Shown piece by piece: positions 2,521 through 23,003 of a stretch of DNA of 45,425 bases. How positions within the stretch are numbered: the first letter of the stretch is position 1; the number at the start of each line of letters is the position of its first letter. The stretch lies in contig JAUIGE010000047.1 in the NCBI GenBank assembly GCA_030430205.1, forward strand, positions 1 through 45,425, given 5' to 3'. The position numbers and the translations under genes were made by a program. The notes beneath the pieces were generated by a model that saw only the letters and a program-made list of their open reading frames with translations, had not been told where the DNA came from and ran no database searches. Source of the DNA: Bacteroidia bacterium. GTDB taxonomy: Bacteria; Bacteroidota; Bacteroidia; J057.

Positions 2521-3246
2521 ATGAAAATTGCACTAATAGGCTACGGCCGCATGGGAAAAGCAATAGAGCAGGAAGCCTTGCTTCGTTCGCATGAAATCAG
2601 CTTTAAAATAGATAAAGGCGAGCTGGAATTGATTCAGCAGTTGAATCCTGAAAATACCGATGTCATCATCGAATTCACGCATCCTGATAGCTTTTTTGGC
2701 AACCTGCATGCCTTGCTTCCGCTGAAAATTCCGATAGTCTCCGGCACCACCGGCTGGCACGATCAGTTGGAGGAAGTCCTCACAATCGTTGAAGATCATG
2801 AAGGCAAATTTCTTTACAGTTCCAATTTTTCGATAGGTGTAAATGTGCTGTTTAAGCTCAATGAGCGCCTTGCTGAGCTGATGAATCCCTATCCCGAATA
2901 TGATCCCTTCATCGAAGAGCAGCATCATCGCCACAAAGCCGATGCGCCCAGCGGCACAGCCATCAGCCTGGCGCAGCAGGTGCTGCAGGGCCTCGACCGC
3001 AAAGACAGCATCGCTGACGAATCGCTGCGCCGCCGCGCGCCTCAGCCCAACGAATTGTCCGTGGGCTATGCCCGCGCAGGGGAGATATTTGGCCGCCACA
3101 AAGTGGCCTATACCTCCGAGATCGATACGATCCAGATTATCCATCAGGCACATAACAGGCGCGGATTCGCGCTGGGAGCCGTGGTCGGCGCTGAATGGCT
3201 GGTGAAGCAGGGCGCAGGGGTGTATGATTTTAAGGATTTGTTTTGA
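2521..3246 (+). CDS. dapB: 4-hydroxy-tetrahydrodipicolinate reductase
   Basis: This cytosolic enzyme reduces the DapA product with NAD(P)H in the diaminopimelate/lysine pathway, supplying peptidoglycan and lysine precursors. The 241-residue protein starts with the nucleotide-binding motif GYGRMG (residues 7-12), has SGTTGW near 75, and the substrate-binding stretch EQHHRHKADAPSGTA near 133-147, including the catalytic HH pair and the K of the KxxxGTA-type motif. The C-terminal RRGFALGAVVGAEWL segment is also typical. Length fits the short Bacteroidota form. The ATG is 8 bases after the upstream stop, so it may be co-transcribed with the DUF5682 gene, though no functional link is evident. An inverted repeat lies downstream. 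Confidence 0.96.
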   Translation: MKIALIGYGRMGKAIEQEALLRSHEISFKIDKGELELIQQLNPENTDVIIEFTHPDSFFGNLHALLPLKIPIVSGTTGWHDQLEEVLTIVEDHEGKFLYSSNFSIGVNVLFKLNERLAELMNPYPEYDPFIEEQHHRHKADAPSGTAISLAQQVLQGLDRKDSIADESLRRRAPQPNELSVGYARAGEIFGRHKVAYTSEIDTIQIIHQAHNRRGFALGAVVGAEWLVKQGAGVYDFKDLF

Positions 3247-3303
3247 GGGGCGGGAGTAGACGCGGATGGCGCGGACTTTTATGACAACCATATAGGGCAT
3301 ATA

Positions 3304-3345
3304 AGTTCATATAAGGCCATTTACCTCAGCAAGCTTATATGAACT
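3304..3345. repeat. Perfect 12-bp inverted repeat, 18-base loop
   Basis: AGTTCATATAAG at 3304-3315 is matched by CTTATATGAACT at 3334-3345. It lies between dapB and the next gene. There is no T run after it, so a terminator role is not obvious; it may be a REP-type element or an mRNA-stabilising hairpin. Confidence 0.6.
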
Positions 3346-3396
3346 CAGTCAGTGAAAAAATGAAAATTCATAGAGTTCCAAAATAGTGTATGATCT

Positions 3397-4221
3397 ATGT
3401 CAAAGACTCTGAAAAATCTAAGATTTTACGAGCAGCAGTTCAATACAATAAAAGGGTTAATCCCTTTTGCGAATTCATGTATTTCAGAATCTATTGCACC
3501 CGGTAAGTTGGTAAAAGGATTTTTTCATGAGCATTTGATTTATTGGGATGTTCTTCAATCACCTTCAAAGAAGAAAATTTGGGAAATAGGGATGACTACT
3601 AAAGAAGAGTATTCTTTATTAGAAAGAATGGTCCAAATGATGAATTTATTGGTCAATGTGAAAAAGACATCACAATCGGCGAATGTGAGTCAGAAGTCAA
3701 ATAAAATAACCCTATTCGAACTATTAGTGAGATTGCGAGATCATGTTCTTAAACAAAGTAGCAGGGAAATCATACCTTCATTTACTTTGCCAGAGACTGT
3801 AAAACATTCTAATTCTTTTAAAGAAAAATTCAGCTTGTCGTTTCCTTCAATGACAAAACATGAAAAAAAATTGTTCGAATTATGTGTTCAGGGAATTAAG
3901 GCTACCGAAATCCCCGGGTTTGTTTCAGAAGTGCTAGATAAGCAGATGCATCACCTTTATCACTTGGCGCATTTGGGAGAATCTTATGATAATCAATGGG
4001 CAAATGAAATTAACAAGTATACCGCACTCCAAAAACGTTCATTAACTGCTGGAAAAGAGTATGAAGGCAAGGCATATGAGATAATTTGTAAAATGCTTAC
4101 TGTAAATATGGCGTTGAATCAATCAATCCGAGACCAGGCAAACCCACAGTATGAGAACTTTATCATCAAGATGGAGGAAATGGTCCAGTACTTTAAGAAA
4201 AAGGAAAAAGAAGAAAAATAG
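3397..4221 (+). CDS. Hypothetical protein, mainly helical
   Basis: I do not recognise this 274-residue protein. It has no signal peptide or membrane segment and is lysine-rich, ending in a charged KKKEKEEK tail. The composition suggests mostly alpha helix (stretches such as LLERMVQMMNLLVNV and KKLFELCVQGIKA). A local C, H and W motif set is not evident. The DNA is clearly more AT-rich than dapB, matching the accessory genes that follow, so recent acquisition is possible. It stands alone, with 150 bases before and 124 bases after. Confidence 0.7.
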   Translation: MSKTLKNLRFYEQQFNTIKGLIPFANSCISESIAPGKLVKGFFHEHLIYWDVLQSPSKKKIWEIGMTTKEEYSLLERMVQMMNLLVNVKKTSQSANVSQKSNKITLFELLVRLRDHVLKQSSREIIPSFTLPETVKHSNSFKEKFSLSFPSMTKHEKKLFELCVQGIKATEIPGFVSEVLDKQMHHLYHLAHLGESYDNQWANEINKYTALQKRSLTAGKEYEGKAYEIICKMLTVNMALNQSIRDQANPQYENFIIKMEEMVQYFKKKEKEEK

Positions 4222-4345
4222 CTCCACTGTCAACCTAAATCTGTTTCGATACTTAATACACTGGAATTGAGTTAATTCTGCTATGAGATAAATCAGTAGA
4301 ATTAATTCACCTTTTTTTATAATTTAGTTCGAAACATAAATCTAA

Positions 4346-5863
4346 ATGAAGTATTATATTTTTTTCTTACTCAACATGGGCATGCTGCTCACCATACCTG
4401 CCCAAAACACAGTGACTGTTTTTGGTGAGGTTGAATGTATAATTACCAAGGCCATTTCAGTCGATGGTGTTTCTACCCGGCCTGATGGTTCAAAGGTTAT
4501 TATTACAACAGACTCTATGGGGGTATTTACAGATACCTTCACAACCACCCTCAACCAAGGTTATGTAGTAATTACCTTTCCGCATACCACAACTGACTCT
4601 ACTTCTCATGCTGGTTACTTTGCACCATCGAACAACTATAATACCAGCGGTTTTCCACCGATAGAAATATGTGACCAGGAAAGGTGTTGGGCAGATTTTT
4701 CGTATTCTCCATCGACGAGTAACCCTCTTGAAATGGTTTTCATGGACAATTCATATACAGTCCATCCTGGAGTCCTTGAAGTAGCAAAATGGGATTGGGA
4801 TTTTGGTGATGGAAATACCTATTCCACTACAAGATTTCCTTTCAAAGATCGTAATCATGTCTATTCTCAACCAGGGATATACAAGGTTTGTTTAGCCATG
4901 ACAGAGAATTACGGTTGTAAAGACACGGTCTGCCAAACCATCACTGTGGGTGATGTTGGAGACATTTCGGGTGAAGTATTTCTTGGTAGTGGGAACCCTG
5001 CTGATAGTGCCATGATATACTTGATTAAGTTTAATTCTTCATCAGGCATTCTATCGGCTATTGACTCTACTTTTGCTTATGCATCACCACCAGGAGGTGC
5101 CGTTTATAGTTTCACTGGTGTCCCTGCTGGAAGTTATCGAACCAAGGCAGCTTTGCTTCCAGGTCATTCTCAATATGCCAATTATCTACCTACTTATCAC
5201 GACTCTGTTCTCTTCTGGAGTACGGCTAATGTCATCAATCTTGCCGGAAATGCCACAGCTGATATTTTCATGCAAGCAGGTAATAATCCTGGAGGACCGG
5301 GCTTTATTGGCGGGTTGATCAGCCTGGGAGCCAATAAGCGTGATCCAGGTGATCCACTAGAGAATATCTCAGTTCTATTACTGGATAATAATAACGAGCC
5401 TGTGGCTCATACCCTGAGTGATGTGAATGGAGAGTATGGTTTCAACGATTTGGCTTATGGAACGTATCGAGTCCACGTAGAAGTGCTTAATCGAATAAGT
5501 ACGGATCAGTATATCTCCATTTCGGCTGATACCACCTCTGTAACTGATATTAACTTTGCGGTAAACTCTACTACAATTGATGTTCCTACAACTATTGAGG
5601 GCTTCAGCTTTGGCAAAATGCTTGAGGTCTATCCCAACCCTAACACGGGCTTGCTCCATGTGACCCTTGAACTTAGCCAAAGTTTGGAAATCCAACTGAA
5701 TGTAATTGACCTAATGGGGCGAAACAAGAATTCCCTCAGCAAAAAACTTATTGCTGGCGAACATAATATGAGCCTCGACCTAACTGATTTGCCCGGGGGC
5801 ATCTATATCATTTGCTTTCGATCTGGAGATCAGATAGTAAGTAGGAAGATTATTAAGGAATAA
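4346..5863 (+). CDS. PKD-domain protein with T9SS sorting tail
   Basis: The 505-residue product starts with a signal peptide (cleavage likely after PAQ near residue 20). A PKD domain spans about residues 110-200, with the typical WDWDFGDGNTY and H-Y-PGIYKVCL motifs. Two carboxypeptidase-regulatory-like beta modules follow (about 205-320 and 325-415). The last 80 residues form a type A T9SS sorting domain: LEVYPNPNTG, then a conserved LxGGIYIICF-type motif and a final KIIKE. The protein is expected to cross the outer membrane by the type IX system and be released or anchored to lipopolysaccharide. No catalytic domain is visible, so an adhesive or structural role is likely (inference). Confidence 0.88.
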   Translation: MKYYIFFLLNMGMLLTIPAQNTVTVFGEVECIITKAISVDGVSTRPDGSKVIITTDSMGVFTDTFTTTLNQGYVVITFPHTTTDSTSHAGYFAPSNNYNTSGFPPIEICDQERCWADFSYSPSTSNPLEMVFMDNSYTVHPGVLEVAKWDWDFGDGNTYSTTRFPFKDRNHVYSQPGIYKVCLAMTENYGCKDTVCQTITVGDVGDISGEVFLGSGNPADSAMIYLIKFNSSSGILSAIDSTFAYASPPGGAVYSFTGVPAGSYRTKAALLPGHSQYANYLPTYHDSVLFWSTANVINLAGNATADIFMQAGNNPGGPGFIGGLISLGANKRDPGDPLENISVLLLDNNNEPVAHTLSDVNGEYGFNDLAYGTYRVHVEVLNRISTDQYISISADTTSVTDINFAVNSTTIDVPTTIEGFSFGKMLEVYPNPNTGLLHVTLELSQSLEIQLNVIDLMGRNKNSLSKKLIAGEHNMSLDLTDLPGGIYIICFRSGDQIVSRKIIKE

Positions 5864-6043
5864 GAATTGCACGACAAACAACAAGAATTCATGAGTATCT
5901 TTTGCTACATGTACAGGCTGATGGTGAAGTTTAGACTTCCAGTGTGGTGAAAGAGTAGAGGGGGGCTAGATTAGACAATAAGTGCTGCACGAAAATATGG
6001 CGGATGCACAAATCTTAGACCTCCTCTGAAACCCCAAAAAATA

Positions 6044-7283
6044 ATGAAACCAAGCATCACCCTTTTCATATTCCTCCTTATTGCTTCTTGCCAATCCCAA
6101 AACGGACAAGAAATAGCGGAAAAGAATGAAGAATTAACCTCAAAAATAGATTCGATAATTGAGAATCATGATTTTAATGGGGTTGTACTTTTAACAAAAG
6201 ACTCAACCCTTATTTACAAAAAAGCGCTTGGATATGCTGATATAGAACGGAAAACAGCACTTAAGCCAGGTGACCAATTTGTGGTTGGGTCAATCAGTAA
6301 GCAGATTACGGCTGTTTTAATTTTAAGGGAATATGAAAAAGGAAATATTGCATTGGACGATACGATCAGAAAATATTTGCCGGAAATTAATCAACCCTGG
6401 GCGGATAAAGTGAGCATTCACCATTTACTGACTCATACACATGGGATTGTTGACATGGACAAGCCATTGGAATTTGAGCCAGGCACACAGTTTCACTATT
6501 CGCAATTAGGCTATGAACTATTGGCTCAAGTCCTTGAAAATGTTAGCGGAAAGTCATTTAGGAATAGCGATAAAATAAATCATCAGTTTGTTTCAAGGAG
6601 TTTGTCATTTCGACGAGGCTTTGCGAGGAGAAATCTCCTGACCCCATGTATTAAAAGCTTGATTATCAATAACTCAGGAGATTTCTCCTCGAAGACTCGT
6701 CGAAATGACACCTCCTGGCGAAAAATGAAACTGATAGTTTATTTCGTCACCGTTCCTTAATGAATTATCACCTGAACTGTTTTCCAAATACGGACTACCA
6801 AATACCTGTCATCCTGACAATAAGAATTATAAAAAGCTTGTGAAAGGCTATGAAGAAGCGGAGACCGGAAAATTGGAATTTGCTACAAACAGTTTGGAAA
6901 ATTATGCAGCTGCGGGTTCATTTATTTCAAATGCAGAAGATTTGAGCAAGTGGAACGAACTGCTTTATTCAGGAAAGCTCGTTACAAAACCAACATTGGC
7001 ATTAATGAAAAAGCCTTATGCTACAAGGATTCATCCGATATTTGAACAGATAGAATATGGGTATGGTTTACTTTTCAAAGACGGAGAAAATGATACACAA
7101 ATAGGAGCTTTGGGATACGCAGCTGGTTTTGTATCAGCTTGTTATCATTATCCAAAAACGAATATGAACCTGATTGTACTTGGGAATACGGCAAGGAATT
7201 TACATGATTTTAAAGTAACTTTTCAGGTGCCAACAGAATTGATGGAATTAGTAAAAAACGAAGGCCGACCCGCAAAAGATTGA
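6044..7283 (+). pseudogene. Serine hydrolase (beta-lactamase fold), broken by an inserted element
   Basis: The 5' part encodes a lipoprotein signal (IASC lipobox near residue 16) and a class C beta-lactamase-like domain with SISK as the SxxK motif near residue 85 and YSQ in the place of YxN near 150. After codon 174 (Asn, AAT 6563-6565) a 196-base palindromic element intervenes and brings stops. Deleting 6566-6761 rejoins the frame exactly, giving SGKSFRN followed by ELSPELFSKYG and then the C-terminal half, for a 347-residue protein of normal length. The element ends in a repeated AAT, which looks like a 3-base target duplication. Such enzymes are periplasmic esterases or penicillin-binding-like hydrolases. 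As it stands it should be non-functional. A GTG at 6840 could start the tail alone, but that piece lacks the catalytic serine. Confidence 0.9.
6566..6761. mobile_element. 196-base palindromic MITE-like element, copy 1
   Basis: The element is nearly one large hairpin: GTCATTTCGACGAG...GAGGAGAAATCTCCTGA on the left is mirrored on the right around a short AT-rich centre near 6645-6680. It carries no transposase. A second copy, in opposite orientation, lies at about 32562-32755, with a core that is almost identical. Flanking AAT on both sides (6563-6565 and 6759-6761) suggests a 3-base target duplication, and the interrupted gene confirms the exact borders. Confidence 0.85.
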
Positions 7284-17866: not shown

Positions 17867-18156
17867 ATAGGCGGGGAATTTTATTCCCCAATTTCCGCCT
17901 TTCAAATATGAAAGGCAAGAGCCAATGGCCCTCGTACTCAAACTTGAACGCCAACTCAAACTTTCTTTTGCCTTTCTTTAAACCCCGGGCGGAGCGTATC
18001 AGATTAGTGGAGAATGTCGCACCATATATCCTACTCAATGAAAATCCAAAATCAGATATATATATGTAATTCCCCCTCCCCCGGATTCCAATTTGCGGGC
18101 ACTAAACCTGTCTTGAGTGCAGATGAAGGAAGGATAAAAGGGAAAAATACCAAAAA
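17867..18156. other. Intergenic region with repeats
   Basis: No gene is supported. It holds a CTCAAACTTGAACGCCAACTC stretch of the (CAAACT)-rich type also seen near 23010-23045, and the 76-base box at 18085-18160 that follows the FGE gene. Confidence 0.5.
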
Positions 18157-18160
18157 TCAA
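18085..18160 (-). repeat. Conserved 76-base box after FGE gene A
   Basis: This segment directly follows the end of FGE gene A. It matches 18875-18950, which directly follows FGE gene B, with about 10 differences over an equal 76 bases. It is much better conserved between the two than the gene ends before it. Confidence 0.8.
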
Positions 18161-18780
18161 AGGGTCCTGGAGAGGCGGAAGCCCAGATCAATACTGGAAG
18201 CTGTCTGGCGGTAGATATTGTAATACATTACTTCACAGCTTAATGTTTGGCATTCATAACTTCCACCTCGTATGGTATGAAATCCAGTTTCTTCATTGCC
18301 ATCATTTTTCACACCATTTGAAGTATTGTGCCACCTGTTTTGGCACCACTCCCATACATTCCCACTCATATCATATAGGCCTAATGCATTGGGAAATTTC
18401 AACCCTACAGGCTTCGTTTCTCCATAACTGTTACCTCGATACCATCCCACTTCATTCAGGGAGTTACTGCCTGCATAAAAAAAATTGTTTTGGTGGATTC
18501 CACCTCTGGCTGCATATTCCCATTCAACTTCTCCAGGCAAGCGAAATCTTTCCCCTAATTTATCATTGAGTTTATCTAAGAAGACCATTACCTGATCGCA
18601 AGTCACAGATTCTACAGGTCGAGTAGAACCCACGAAATATGATGGATTTTCTCCCATAACTGCCTCCCATAACATTTGAGTTACAGGAAATTGGGCAAGT
18701 TCAAAGTTTGCAACCCTTCCCCCTTTGATGGGTATCATCTTGGGGAGAAGTTCTCGAAGCTTGGTTTTGGATAAGGTCAT
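18157..18780 (-). CDS. FGE-sulfatase (SUMF1-fold) protein, copy A
   Basis: The 207-residue cytosolic protein has the formylglycine-generating-enzyme/C-type-lectin fold signature: ENPSYFVGSTRPVESVT, RFRLPGEVEWEYAARGG, GLYDMSGNVWEWCQNRWH and a final LGFRLSRTL. Compared with copy B it lacks about 20 residues after the first GG (the FLMGSE...EKPV segment). The catalytic cysteines of true formylglycine-generating enzymes are not evident, so a binding role is more likely. The last 34 residues share only 9 positions with copy B at equal length, although the rest is clearly similar. The ATG at 18780 matches the start of copy B (MTL/MTS); an upstream start at 18807 is possible. It lies 166 bases after copy B on the same strand. 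Confidence 0.85.
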   Translation of the reverse strand: MTLSKTKLRELLPKMIPIKGGRVANFELAQFPVTQMLWEAVMGENPSYFVGSTRPVESVTCDQVMVFLDKLNDKLGERFRLPGEVEWEYAARGGIHQNNFFYAGSNSLNEVGWYRGNSYGETKPVGLKFPNALGLYDMSGNVWEWCQNRWHNTSNGVKNDGNEETGFHTIRGGSYECQTLSCEVMYYNIYRQTASSIDLGFRLSRTL

Positions 18781-18874
18781 AAGGTATATGGTTCTTTGCT
18801 TTAGCAAATAGCTACATTTTGCTTTTTATTCAAAGGGGGATTTGATTGTCGGCACTTGGAGTGCCTCCACCTTA

Positions 18875-18950
18875 ATTCCAATCTGCGGGCACTAAACCTG
18901 TCCTGAGCACAGCCGAAGGAAGGATAAAAGGCAAAAAACCTAAAAATCAA
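18875..18950 (-). repeat. Conserved 76-base box after FGE gene B
   Basis: Partner of 18085-18160. It starts within the end of gene B and fills the spacer to gene A. Its position directly after a hypervariable gene end resembles the initiation-of-homing element of diversity-generating retroelements, but no such activity is shown. Confidence 0.8.
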
Positions 18951-19633
18951 GGAGTCCTTGAGAGGCGACAGCCCATATTGAAGTGGGTAAGTGTTGGATG
19001 ATAAAGGCTTCGAAACGAAATTTGACAATATTGACTGTCATCGAACCAAGTGCCGCCGCGTACGACCCGGGCGACGGAGTCTCCCGTTTCCCAGGCTTGA
19101 CTGCTCAGGGGGGCATGTTTATAGTGGTTGTGCCATTTATCCTGACACCACTCCCAAACATTGCCACTCATATCATAGAATCCCAAAGCATTTGGCAGTT
19201 TTAAGCCTAGAGGTTTTGTTTCTCCATGGCTATTACCATGAAACCAACCTACCTCTTCAAGCCTATTGCTGCCGGCATACAAAAAGTCGGAAAGGTGGAC
19301 ACCTCCTCTGGCAGCATATTCCCACTCTGCTTCGCTAGGAAGCCTAAAGCTTTCTCCTAATTCTTTATTTAGTTTGGCTATAAATTGTTGAACCATATCC
19401 CAGGAAACTCGTTCCACAGGACGAAAATGGCCTTTAAATTTAGATGGATTTTCTCCCATTACAGCAATCCATAAGGCTTGATTAACAGGGATTTGTGCTA
19501 ATTCAAAATTATCAATTAGGACTTCACGAACTGGTTTTTCAGAATCGCGCCCCGTTTCACTTCCCATTAAGAATATTCCTCCCTGGACGGAAATCATAGT
19601 AGGTAAAAAATCATTAAAAGAAGAACTGGTCAT
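18947..19633 (-). CDS. FGE-sulfatase (SUMF1-fold) protein, copy B
   Basis: The 228-residue protein is a complete small FGE-fold domain: MISVQGGIFLMGSETG at the front, then ENPSKFKGHFRPVERVSWD, RLPSEAEWEYAARGG, GFYDMSGNVWEWCQDKWH, and the closing RVVRGGTWFDDSQYC...MGCRLSRTP. There is no signal peptide. In diversity-generating retroelements this fold is a common target and its C-terminal part is the variable region; here that same part differs most from copy A. It is divergent from the large ROC-TIR gene, with 121 bases between the two start codons, so the two may share a control region and a function. Confidence 0.88.
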   Translation of the reverse strand: MTSSSFNDFLPTMISVQGGIFLMGSETGRDSEKPVREVLIDNFELAQIPVNQALWIAVMGENPSKFKGHFRPVERVSWDMVQQFIAKLNKELGESFRLPSEAEWEYAARGGVHLSDFLYAGSNRLEEVGWFHGNSHGETKPLGLKLPNALGFYDMSGNVWEWCQDKWHNHYKHAPLSSQAWETGDSVARVVRGGTWFDDSQYCQISFRSLYHPTLTHFNMGCRLSRTP

Positions 19634-19754: not shown

Positions 19755-22700
19755 ATGTCCGACCAGGCGCTACAAAAAAGCTTAGAAAAATGGAGTTCTC
19801 AGCCAGCCACAGCACCTATGCTGGCGGGATTGCCTCATTTCCCTTTTAATCAGCAGCATGTATGGGATGAGGCAGAGAAGTTAATCGCCCTGAACCTGCG
19901 GGGGGTAGGTATATCCGATGCAGATTGGGAGATCCTGTATACTGCTGATTTGTCCCAGCTGCAAGTGTTGATTCTGGGAAATAATAAGCTTAACAAGCTG
20001 ATGCTCCATAGGGATATGCCTGCGCTTCGGTATCTGGATGTTAGTGGGAACGAAGGCCTGAGGGAACTACAGCTTCATGGTGATTTTTCCAGCCTCGAAA
20101 GACTGGATGCACATGCTTGCCGCTTGCACACATTGAACCTACGGGGAAATTTCCCATCGATACATTTTTTGGACCTTCATCAGAATGAGTTGAGTCAGCT
20201 AGACTTGATACCTGCGATGCCTGTGTTGAAGACCCTAGACATCAGCAAAAATAATCTGAACAGGCTGAATTTACCGATAACCCTGCCTCAATTGCAGGGC
20301 TTATACCTCAAAAATAATCCTTTAGGAGAGCTTTACTTTTTGCAAAGCAGCTTCCCTAGTCTGGAGACTTTGGATGTTCGTTCCTGCTCACTACAAAATT
20401 TGCCTCGAATATTATTGAATTGTGGAGCTTTGCTCAATCTTTATATTGCAGATAATCCCTTGCCGAGTGTTCCTCGGGATTCCATCCCCGAAGAAAATCG
20501 CTCATACCAGCAAGCCGAAAATGCTTGGGATAACCTAAAAGGCTACCTGCAAAGCCTGGAGGAAGATCGCCCGGTCAACAATGACGAAGTAAAACTGGTG
20601 CTGCTGGGTAATAGTACCGCAGGCAAATCCTCCCTAATGGAGTACCTGGAACATAAGACTTTTGAACTGGGTAAAAACTCTACTCACGGCATCCAGAATC
20701 AGCTATGGAAAGCTGATGGGCAGGATTTCCAGGTGAATATGTGGGATTTTGGCGGGCAGGAGTATTACCATGCCACCCATCGACTTTTCCTGTCAGACAA
20801 TTCGGTTTCTGTGGTGGTGTTTGAAGAAAAAACGAACAAGCAGAAGGAAGTTTATATGCCGATCTTTCGGGAAGGGGAAGGAGAAGTAATGGAATGGATT
20901 GAGCATTTTCCCTATGCCTATTGGCTGGAAGGCCTTAAACTATATTGTGGGGATGAGGCATTGCCGGGTACTTTTTTGGTACAAAACAAAATGGACGAAT
21001 CCACCGAAGTGCGCATCCCCGATCAGGACAAGGATGCTTATGCGCTGACGGGTGATCGCCTATTTCGCATCAGCTTATTGGCTGCCCATAAAAAGGATCG
21101 CAAATATGTACGCAGTTTCGAAGAGCTGGAAGATAGTCTTGTAGAAGCCCTGAATAAAGCCTGTCACAAATATGATATCAGCGAAAAATGGCTGGAGATC
21201 AAAACTGCTTTGCGCAATTTGAGCAGGGGAGGAACGAAGTTCATAAGTTATGATGCATATGTGGCATTTTGCGAGAAAATCCGCCCTGGTATCAGCATAG
21301 ATGATGCAGGGAAGGAAAATGCGATGCTGAAGTCTTTGACAAATTACCTGCGTGGGATTGGGGTGATTTTATATTATCCTGAGATAAAGACCCTCAAGGA
21401 TATTGTTTTTATTGATGCGGTCTGGGTGGCAAAGATGATTTATCGGGTGCTGGATACCCAGGTGATCAAAGCAGAAGGAGCGTTTCATAAAGAGCGTATA
21501 TGTGACAAAGTGAAGGAGTTGGAAGCTGATGTGTTGATTTCCTTAATGCATAAGTTTGAGTTGATTTTCCCTTCGAAAAAGGTTAAGGATACCTTTGTTG
21601 CCCCTCAATATTTAGGGAAAAAAGAACCCAAGTCGTTTAAAAAGTTTAAAAATATTTGTGGTCATTTTCTCTTTTCCTTGCGCTATCCACAATTTTTGCG
21701 GCCGAGCGTGTTGGCTCGCTTTATATGTCGCTATGGCGAATTGTCTGATGATGAGTTCTGGAAGAAAGGAATCCTGATTGAATATGAAGGGGTATATGTA
21801 TTAGTAAAAGTAGGTGAGAATCAGACGATTCAAGTATTTGCAAATAAACCAGTACCCGAATTGGCTGGTCCCATTTTTCAGACCTTCCAGGAACTCAATA
21901 ACCACAATCCAAACATCTTGCTATCAGTAGATGGCAAGCATGAAGTGACGATGGAGAACTTTATGAAACAGCCGGATGAGAATGCTATGATTGAGGATAT
22001 ACTAGGCAATCAGATTCTCTTTGAACCTTTTATACCTTTGAAAGGTAGGATGATGGAAGGCCAGATGCATACAATGAAATTACCCCCCCCACAAAATATG
22101 AAACTAGCCAAAGAATTGATTCAAAATCTAATCGCAGCAAGCGAACTGGAGGAGGCACTACGTCTGCTCAAACAAGTTTTGGGTAGCAATGAAGCTATCC
22201 TGCTACAGGCCCGTTTAAATGGCCTCAAGAAAGATATAAGAAAAGGAACCTTGTCCAGTGAACAAAAAGATTTGTTAAAGAGCCGCTTGAATGCTGATAT
22301 ACTATCTTTATCGGAGGAAGTAAGTGATAGCCAGCTGATTTCCCATGATGGTCCTAAAAAGCAGGATGAACCGACTTTGAATGAAATCGAAAACCCGCCG
22401 ACAAAGGCGCAAATCTATATTTCCTATGCCTGGGGGGATAAAGGTGAAAAAGGAAAAAGCCGTGAAAAAATTGTCACGGACTTGTATGATTCGCTCAATG
22501 GCGATGGTTTTGATGTTAGGATCGATAAAAAGAACCTGAAATTTGGAGAGTCCCTTAACAATTTCATGACTGCTTTAGGGAAAGGCGATTTGGTCGTAGT
22601 CTGTGTAAGTGATAAGTACCTCCGATCCCCTTTTTGCATGTGGGAATTGTGCGAAGTGTTTAGAACAAGTCAGGGCGAAAAGGAAAAATTTGCTGAGCGG

Positions 22701-23003
22701 ATAATCCCTGTTCGGGTGGAAAATCTTTCTTTGGGTAGTCCACTGACGCTCATGCCCTATTTGAAGCATTGGAGGCAAAAATATGAGGAATGGGAGGAAA
22801 TGTATACCGATTTCCCCCAGGAAATGGGTTCCACACATATGGAAGAATTTCGCAAAAGTCGTACGATTAAGGATTCATTTAGTGAAGTTGTGGGCTTCTT
22901 CAATGATTTATTGGGAAAAAATTCAGAGGAACTTCTACAAGATAATTTTGATGAGCTGAAAGCACTGATTGTGGAGCGCAGTCGGCGTTTGGGGAGGGAT
23001 TGA
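19755..23003 (+). CDS. LRR-ROC-COR-EAD-TIR protein (NLR-like)
   Basis: The 1082-residue protein has leucine-rich repeats (about 45-250; LxxLxLxxN units such as LQVLILGNNKLNKL), then a Roco GTPase: P-loop GNSTAGKSS near 285-293, DFGGQE near 330 and NKMD near 411, followed by a COR region (about 480-760). Residues about 778-855 (LAKELIQNLIAASELEEALRLL...ILLQARLNGLKKDIRKG) fit an effector-associated domain, most like EAD11. The C-terminus is a TIR/SEFIR domain (IYISYAWGDKG near 885) with Glu in MWELCEVF near 965, where TIR NADases have their catalytic residue. The architecture is sensor, switch, adaptor, effector, as in prokaryotic conflict and antiphage systems. NAD cleavage or signalling is inferred. 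No signal peptide; cytosolic. Confidence 0.92.
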   Translation: MSDQALQKSLEKWSSQPATAPMLAGLPHFPFNQQHVWDEAEKLIALNLRGVGISDADWEILYTADLSQLQVLILGNNKLNKLMLHRDMPALRYLDVSGNEGLRELQLHGDFSSLERLDAHACRLHTLNLRGNFPSIHFLDLHQNELSQLDLIPAMPVLKTLDISKNNLNRLNLPITLPQLQGLYLKNNPLGELYFLQSSFPSLETLDVRSCSLQNLPRILLNCGALLNLYIADNPLPSVPRDSIPEENRSYQQAENAWDNLKGYLQSLEEDRPVNNDEVKLVLLGNSTAGKSSLMEYLEHKTFELGKNSTHGIQNQLWKADGQDFQVNMWDFGGQEYYHATHRLFLSDNSVSVVVFEEKTNKQKEVYMPIFREGEGEVMEWIEHFPYAYWLEGLKLYCGDEALPGTFLVQNKMDESTEVRIPDQDKDAYALTGDRLFRISLLAAHKKDRKYVRSFEELEDSLVEALNKACHKYDISEKWLEIKTALRNLSRGGTKFISYDAYVAFCEKIRPGISIDDAGKENAMLKSLTNYLRGIGVILYYPEIKTLKDIVFIDAVWVAKMIYRVLDTQVIKAEGAFHKERICDKVKELEADVLISLMHKFELIFPSKKVKDTFVAPQYLGKKEPKSFKKFKNICGHFLFSLRYPQFLRPSVLARFICRYGELSDDEFWKKGILIEYEGVYVLVKVGENQTIQVFANKPVPELAGPIFQTFQELNNHNPNILLSVDGKHEVTMENFMKQPDENAMIEDILGNQILFEPFIPLKGRMMEGQMHTMKLPPPQNMKLAKELIQNLIAASELEEALRLLKQVLGSNEAILLQARLNGLKKDIRKGTLSSEQKDLLKSRLNADILSLSEEVSDSQLISHDGPKKQDEPTLNEIENPPTKAQIYISYAWGDKGEKGKSREKIVTDLYDSLNGDGFDVRIDKKNLKFGESLNNFMTALGKGDLVVVCVSDKYLRSPFCMWELCEVFRTSQGEKEKFAERIIPVRVENLSLGSPLTLMPYLKHWRQKYEEWEEMYTDFPQEMGSTHMEEFRKSRTIKDSFSEVVGFFNDLLGKNSEELLQDNFDELKALIVERSRRLGRD

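Follow-up and report, generated by a model that had tools for sequence, protein, structure and literature searches.

A tandem pair of FGE-fold genes in a Bacteroidia genome, probable orphaned targets of a diversity-generating retroelement

Two tandem FGE-fold genes in a 45,425-nucleotide stretch of a Bacteroidia genome (the window) are probably duplicate CLec/FGE sensors that were once targets of a diversity-generating retroelement (DGR) and were orphaned by loss of their template, the core remaining under constraint while the variable stretches drift. The assembly, as searched, contains a template-matched DGR at another place and no template that fits the pair. That a DGR once mutated these genes is what we infer; the status of former target is a matter of history and is not directly observable. 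DGRs are the best-known device of bacterial receptor diversity, and little is known of the fate of targets without a template or of their signalling partners; with a template-less pair and template-matched DGR loci in one genome, retirement can be compared with activity in a single organism. In this large-genomed bacterium the pair seem to be relics, frozen or in decay, next to a signalling gene of immune-like type.

The gene pair, its fold and its clade

The two genes, their variable stretches and the boxes behind them are laid out as follows:

18157..18780, minus strand: FGE/CLec-fold gene 1 (P0001, 207 aa), with a PF03781 match
18184..18261, minus strand: gene 1 variable stretch, 26 codons between RGG and GFR
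18157..18183, minus strand: gene 1 end, GFRLSRTL-stop, which fits the pattern GGNTTYCGCCTNKCCAGGACYCYTTRR
18085..18156, minus strand: box 1; over its first ~35 bases after the stop it is similar to the T-rich tail that follows some DGR-type FGE genes in other genomes
18947..19633, minus strand: FGE/CLec-fold gene 2 (P0002, 228 aa), with a PF03781 match, an AlphaFold model of pLDDT 93 and TvpA as best PDB match
18974..19051, minus strand: gene 2 variable stretch
18947..18973, minus strand: gene 2 end, GCRLSRTP-stop, with 2 mismatches to GGNTTYCGCCTNKCCAGGACYCYTTRR
18875..18946, minus strand: box 2
18897..18919, minus strand: CCTTCGGCTGTGCTCAGGACAGG within box 2, not specific to the FGE pair; a related motif is dispersed in a same-genus genome

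Both proteins match PF03781 (FGE-sulfatase) at E 1.2e-31 for P0001 and 3.9e-46 for P0002, and BLASTP aligns them with 113/227 identities and 23 gap positions, gene 1 being without about 19 residues of the N-terminal part present in gene 2. Identity is 0.72 over the 121 columns of the core and 0.12 over the 26 columns from RGG to GFR (3/26). The original prediction had described a conserved core, an ungapped but hypervariable end and a conserved box behind each gene, and this pattern is real: only 9 of the last 34 residues are identical, without gaps, before the box begins. The box is indeed conserved, at 62/72 bases (86%) or 63/76 (83%), the latter slightly below the 87% first given; random 76-mers of the window have on average 19 and at most 38 bases in common. 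When gene 1 is compared with gene 2 in 50-base DNA windows, identity falls to 0.36-0.44 in the variable stretch, against 0.54-0.80 for the ungapped core, and reaches 0.82-0.88 across the gene end and box, above the coding core. An MPAB/rubber-oxygenase catalytic domain protein (PF09995; 16709-17959, minus strand) adjoins the pair on the contig and has no evident link to it.

The nearest solved structure to the gene 2 model is TvpA of Treponema denticola (PDB 2y3c; sequence E 1.8e-24, fold TM 0.88), which outranks PvdO and the FGE enzymes as a structural match and shares the FGE-type CLec fold; it is the best match by sequence and structure alike. The variability of the window pair sits in the C-terminal part of this CLec-type fold, and the variable stretch of TvpA also lies at the C-terminus. 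TvpA is a recognised DGR target; it differs in this from the window genes, for which no template was found.

To place the pair, 36 FGE proteins were aligned, 11 from the same genome (window pair included) and 25 from ten relatives; the alignment left out, from 37 matches of one set, 7 without a locus and 10 with one, and 1 of 6 from a second set. Core and C-terminal identities were compared over the resulting 630 pairs, and the figures for ordinary FGE and window-clade pairs come from the best 45 of the 630 by core identity. Among these, the four ordinary FGE pairs keep their C-terminus (core/C-terminus 0.75/0.72, 0.67/0.69, 0.66/0.69 and 0.65/0.79), and the C-terminal dip is therefore not a general property of FGE proteins; pairs of the window clade drop (0.90/0.15 and 0.76/0.27). 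The corresponding values are 0.85/0.46 for the two DGR targets on contig C60 of the same genome, 0.78/0.58 for the two targets of relative G001 and 0.72/0.12 for the window pair. In the tree the window genes are sisters (support 0.987) within a clade that holds DGR targets of their own genome and of G001, with ordinary FGE proteins outside it and deeper nodes around the pair supported at 0.52 and 0.73. The top-scoring match of the pair among 12 relatives is a DGR target of a same-genus genome, 52% identical.

Reverse transcriptase and templates elsewhere in the genome

The original prediction had called for a search for a reverse transcriptase (RT) with a matching template repeat, and had named their absence from the genome, together with differences not biased to template adenines, as what would speak against it. 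RT and templates both exist in the assembly (80 contigs, rated 100% complete). A PF00078 search gave three places, one with a DGR-type RT and two that are retron-like:

C60:187750-188754: DGR RT, 335 aa, PF00078

This RT is preceded by a 148-aa HRDC-domain accessory gene and flanked by two FGE genes, the targets C60a and C60b; it is followed by template TR1, which holds runs of asparagine codons. Over 120 bases, C60a differs from TR1 at 19/31 adenines and 0/89 other bases, and C60b at 21/31 and 0/89. A second template, TR2, lies behind an FGE gene on contig C51, with differences at 20/32 adenines and 1/88 other bases; no RT match was found within the 15 kb examined around this cassette, which is perhaps served in trans by the C60 RT. 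In this cassette the FGE target, TR2 and an LRR-Roc-COR-EAD11-TIR gene stand in a row (L041:6414-7544 and 2997-6344, minus strand). A third template-like repeat, TR3, lies on C60 at ~20.6 kb beside a bAvd gene (PF22296, E 1.2e-18):

L042:5548-5829 (minus strand), 5757-6083 (plus strand) and 6017-7258 (minus strand): template-like repeat TR3 with the bAvd gene and an nSTAND3 protein

With no RT match within the 12 kb examined, this place looks like a decayed second DGR. RT matches occur in 4/100 genomes at E 1e-20 and in 8/247 at E 1e-30, the own genome being counted in each.

None of the three template-like repeats fits the window pair. The comparison with TR1 gives differences at 16/31 adenines and 47/89 other bases for gene 1 and at 20/31 and 38/89 for gene 2; against TR2 the counts are 20/32 and 53/88 for gene 1 and 20/32 and 41/88 for gene 2, and against TR3, 17/33 and 48/87 for gene 1 and 23/33 and 37/87 for gene 2. 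A slight adenine excess is present for gene 2 (p 0.04 with TR1 and 0.013 with TR3, uncorrected) and absent for gene 1; three foreign templates gave no significant adenine excess for either gene. Between the two window variable stretches, codon positions 1 and 2 differ at 16/25 columns with a template adenine and 16/35 others (p 0.20), and all substitution types occur. The adenine-specific differences that would have been decisive are thus not seen as a clear bias, and the pair, although it belongs to the DGR-diversified FGE/CLec clade, is not supported as a current target; we rejected this for the C60 DGR and for TR2 and TR3 alike.

TR1-TR3 were recovered both by a profile of TR/VR stretches, read down to E 10, and by searching the DNA with a foreign template, in the latter case at 73-75% identity; neither yielded a credible fourth template. 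Weak matches on C74 and C68 were discarded as further templates, the first looking like chance and the second being a broken FGE copy. That copy, at ~192.2 kb on C68 (L020, L060), is frame-broken, ends in YGFRLSRT and is likely a pseudogene of the same clade as the pair. DNA searches with the window stretches returned each other, a 54-base match of 78% behind the genome's own C14 gene, and short pieces only; neither these nor the profile searches found a donor for either variable stretch in the genome. Further copies of the box, for which the original prediction had suggested a search, are represented, apart from the other copy of the pair, by the C14 match and otherwise by short pieces; its second half holds a dispersed motif, and we dropped the idea that the box is a high-copy repeat. 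The C14 gene (L043:3157-5901, plus strand) encodes a caspase-domain protein with a C-terminal FGE domain and the same gene-end cassette as the pair; it has a partial adenine excess, at 19/33 against 23/87 other bases with TR3 and 19/31 against 22/77 with the template of L148, a locus of another genome.

Codon signature, gene end and the history of the pair

Adenine mutagenesis of AAY codons keeps the third base C or T. We used the nine columns that are AAY in at least 4 of 6 templates, and at these columns all 18 codons of the window pair have C or T in third position, and K, Q, E, M and W are absent; the other variable columns of the pair give 16/34 and 9/34, respectively, and the upstream core 186/359 C/T endings. 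Five template-matched targets have C/T endings in 45/45 codons at the nine columns, 18 clade members of relatives in 150/162, three other template-less genes of the own genome in 21/27, and eight ordinary FGE genes in 51/72, with 5/72 encoding K, Q, E, M or W. The excess of the window over ordinary FGE has p 0.0098 in a post hoc test of a feature first spotted by eye, and since ordinary FGE genes share part of it (51/72), the chemistry of the columns contributes to it.

The gene ends point in the same direction. A search of the GTDB collection with GGNTTYCGCCTNKCCAGGACYCYTTRR, a pattern written from gene 1 and the C14 gene, returned 10 stretches in 8 genomes, 10/10 of them at the ends of FGE frames, in records titled Saprospiraceae, Bacteroidetes/Bacteroidia, Thiohalocapsa, Nitrospirae, Planctomycetota and Asaia; a shorter pattern gave none on the viral contigs searched. 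Within the DNA examined, a template lies near 3/10 of these stretches (L148, L149 and L152), and there the template has GCCAGCAC where the target has GCCAGGAC; over 108 bases, target and template differ at 18/31 adenines against 1/77 other bases (L148), 11/21 against 1/87 (L149) and 11/31 against 9/77 (L152). The window gene ends match the target side of these template-bearing loci in sequence and are candidates for an IMH; differences between target and template in IMH and IMH* are described in the available part of PMC4372165. At L148 there are also an RT and a bAvd gene, the latter sharing 44% identity with the bAvd gene next to TR3; the DNA examined at L149 and L152 contains no match to the own RT, HRDC accessory or bAvd.

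Behind the stop, both window genes have tails similar to those of G009, G003 and the Planctomycetota record (0/500 shuffles reach the score) and, at p 0.006-0.008, to that of the Nitrospirae record; among the remaining 11/15 tails, some give p 0.002-0.05 with one window gene (L150 with both) and the rest are not significant. These values come from 30 comparisons of T-rich sequence with 500 shuffles each, many of them not significant. The first half of the box and the gene end accordingly resemble, at the level of sequence, a target-side cassette of DGR-type FGE genes from several phyla. The second half contains CCTTCGGCTGTGCTCAGGACAGG, and a related motif occurs at several places in a same-genus genome and also in others; relative G001 has a longer repeat containing CTCCCTTCGGCGTTGCTCAGGACAGGCTCGACTCGTCGAAATGACC (L103, L106, L108 and L109), to which the window box has a related short motif. 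In relative G009, a variable-stretch scaffold, a gene end of 33 bases and the greater part of the tail are common to two FGE genes whose cores differ; these genes (L143:5657-6454 and L146:6638-5967), one with an in-frame stop, look as if a cassette had moved between them.

According to the part of PMC3240598 at hand, BPP-1 requires an IMH and a hairpin. No hairpin was found downstream of the window variable stretches (folding z 1.25 and 0.31). Lower values were obtained for C60a (-1.80), C60b (-3.35), C14 (-1.83), L148 (-3.58), L152 (-3.32), L154 (-2.09) and G009-C134 (-5.01), and three template-matched targets have no clear hairpin in the stretches folded (C51 -0.23, G001 -0.48, G009-C61 +2.25). 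The hairpin did not cleanly separate active from retired targets, and the argument drawn from it is weak.

The foremost alternative is that the pair are ordinary paralogues of the FGE clade, never touched by a DGR, with a loop evolving fast under diversifying selection or relaxed constraint and a box inherited through the tandem duplication. The genes are tandem sisters without a clear adenine bias towards any template, they differ by substitutions of every type, and members of the clade with a variable C-terminus occur in genomes without an RT match at E 1e-20 (e.g. G003 and G006), all as this account expects. We nevertheless consider it unlikely: the ordinary FGE pairs examined show no dip, the C/T endings at the template-asparagine columns are complete, and conservation is higher in the noncoding box than in the coding core, with the gene end and tail recurring on DGR-type genes elsewhere.

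It is less probable still that the genes are active targets whose template lies in a gap between the 80 contigs or outside the assembly. The frames are intact, the gene end is conserved and the genome has an RT, which apparently serves an unlinked cassette (TR2, on another contig); but the assembly is rated complete, three template-like repeats were found easily, even by a foreign query, and no fourth, divergence has also reached the scaffold codons of the variable stretches, and gene 1 is without an N-terminal segment. Recombination between tandem or dispersed copies, with box and core as homology arms and no reverse transcription, would accommodate the G009 cassette and the neighbouring FGE matches in G001, G003, G006 and G009, but with no donor for either window stretch found in the genome we regard it as highly improbable.

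If the pair are former targets, as we favour, a cognate template and RT would formerly have been present, and adenine-directed mutagenic retrohoming would have rewritten the AAY codons of the C-terminal stretch, with cDNA primed at the conserved gene end (the putative IMH), in front of the box. Loss of RT or template would then have frozen the variable stretches: with the template gone they would be fixed, and ordinary mutation would have made them drift since. Tandem duplication and further drift may have come after or alongside the freezing. The ancestor was perhaps rewritten by a bAvd-class DGR such as that of L148, of which TR3 and the C60 bAvd gene may be remnants; the link to TR3 is a guess, and neither window stretch fits TR3. 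Orphaned DGR parts are already known, since PMC10907252 (Dore et al. 2024) describes, in the portion available, DGR loci with RT or template replaced by MITE-like arrays.

Roc-COR neighbours

The gene divergent from gene 2 encodes a candidate signalling partner:

19755..23003, plus strand: 1082-aa LRR-Roc-COR-EAD11-TIR protein (ROCO, NLR-like), by domain matches

Roc (E 4.3e-18) is followed by COR-A (E 9.7e-21), which identifies a ROCO protein, with LRR, EAD11 and TIR in addition. Such proteins accompany the templates as well. Behind TR1 on C60 lies the gene of an LRR-Roc-COR-CHAT protein. The protein encoded behind TR2 on C51 has the LRR-Roc-COR-EAD11-TIR make-up and shares 30% identity with that of the window. 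At the RT loci of G001 and G009, too, a Roc-COR match comes immediately after the template, in the same orientation. A Roc-COR gene thus follows the template at 3/4 of the DGR loci found in this bacterial family, and follows TR2 as well. The fourth family locus, G012:C214, consists of a template and the end of a more distant RT, truncated at the start of the contig and 35% identical over 86 aa, with no Roc-COR match in the 6.4-kb contig. Outside the family Roc-COR was found at 0/7 RT loci (six from the class search and L148; 8 to 19.5 kb each), one of which, in G175, has an HRDC accessory and an FGE gene. At G009:C167 a Roc-COR match is preceded by two FGE genes in tandem, of which one has its matched frame interrupted by a stop, and no template was found within the 12 kb examined.

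The order target-RT-template-Roc-COR at 3/4 family DGR loci offers a concrete partner hypothesis, with a TIR- or CHAT-carrying ROCO protein. We infer that the TIR-ROCO protein is the partner of the FGE pair and that the pair senses invaders; the core would then be kept under constraint probably as the ligand-binding partner of this LRR-Roc-COR-EAD11-TIR neighbour. Intact frames and a conserved core suggest that gene 2 at least is still in use, the simplest role being that of a sensor working with the TIR-ROCO protein. A bolder reading, which we put forward only tentatively, is that CLec/FGE sensor, DGR template and LRR-Roc-COR effector (TIR or CHAT) form an adaptive receptor module of the family, its template-less tandem copies being kept frozen variants, a heritable repertoire rather than decay.

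Related settings have been described. In the accessible portion of PMC10907252, CLec targets are treated as putative antigen sensors, and the cellular 'clade 5' DGRs of multicellular bacteria have CLec targets with STAND, TIR or CHAT domains or neighbours and with conflict-system neighbours; the systems named there are NACHT/STAND and MoxR, and 'ROCO' is absent from the text, whereas the neighbours in the window genome are Roc-COR genes. The VMAP/FtsH ternary conflict systems (eLife 2020, PMC7159879), in the sections available, include DGR-diversified FGS/CLec proteins in an immune-like setting, and their relation to TvpA is noted; there the FGS domain is mostly fused to the vWA protein of a MoxR system, whereas the window encodes it as a separate protein, next to an LRR-Roc-COR-TIR gene. 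Since the same sections report that the vWA component carries GTPase-COR domains in some cyanobacterial and verrucomicrobial systems, and conflict systems of this class are often DGR-linked, the link between DGR and Roc-COR is not wholly new. FGS domains are also linked to counter-invader systems in the available text of PMC8195603. Our literature search returned no paper joining DGR and Saprospiraceae.

PADLOC gave no match for the FGE pair at E 0.001; its best match for the ROCO neighbour was bSEFIR (1.6e-09). On contig C13 it assigned a 498-aa RT (L001:1174-2670, minus strand) to RT_XIII at E 8.2e-188, making this a candidate for retron-type defence. On contig C31 a Cas1 gene is followed by a 162-aa frame resembling the last part of a retron-type RT (L003:388-1938), whose first residues look reminiscent of Cas2.
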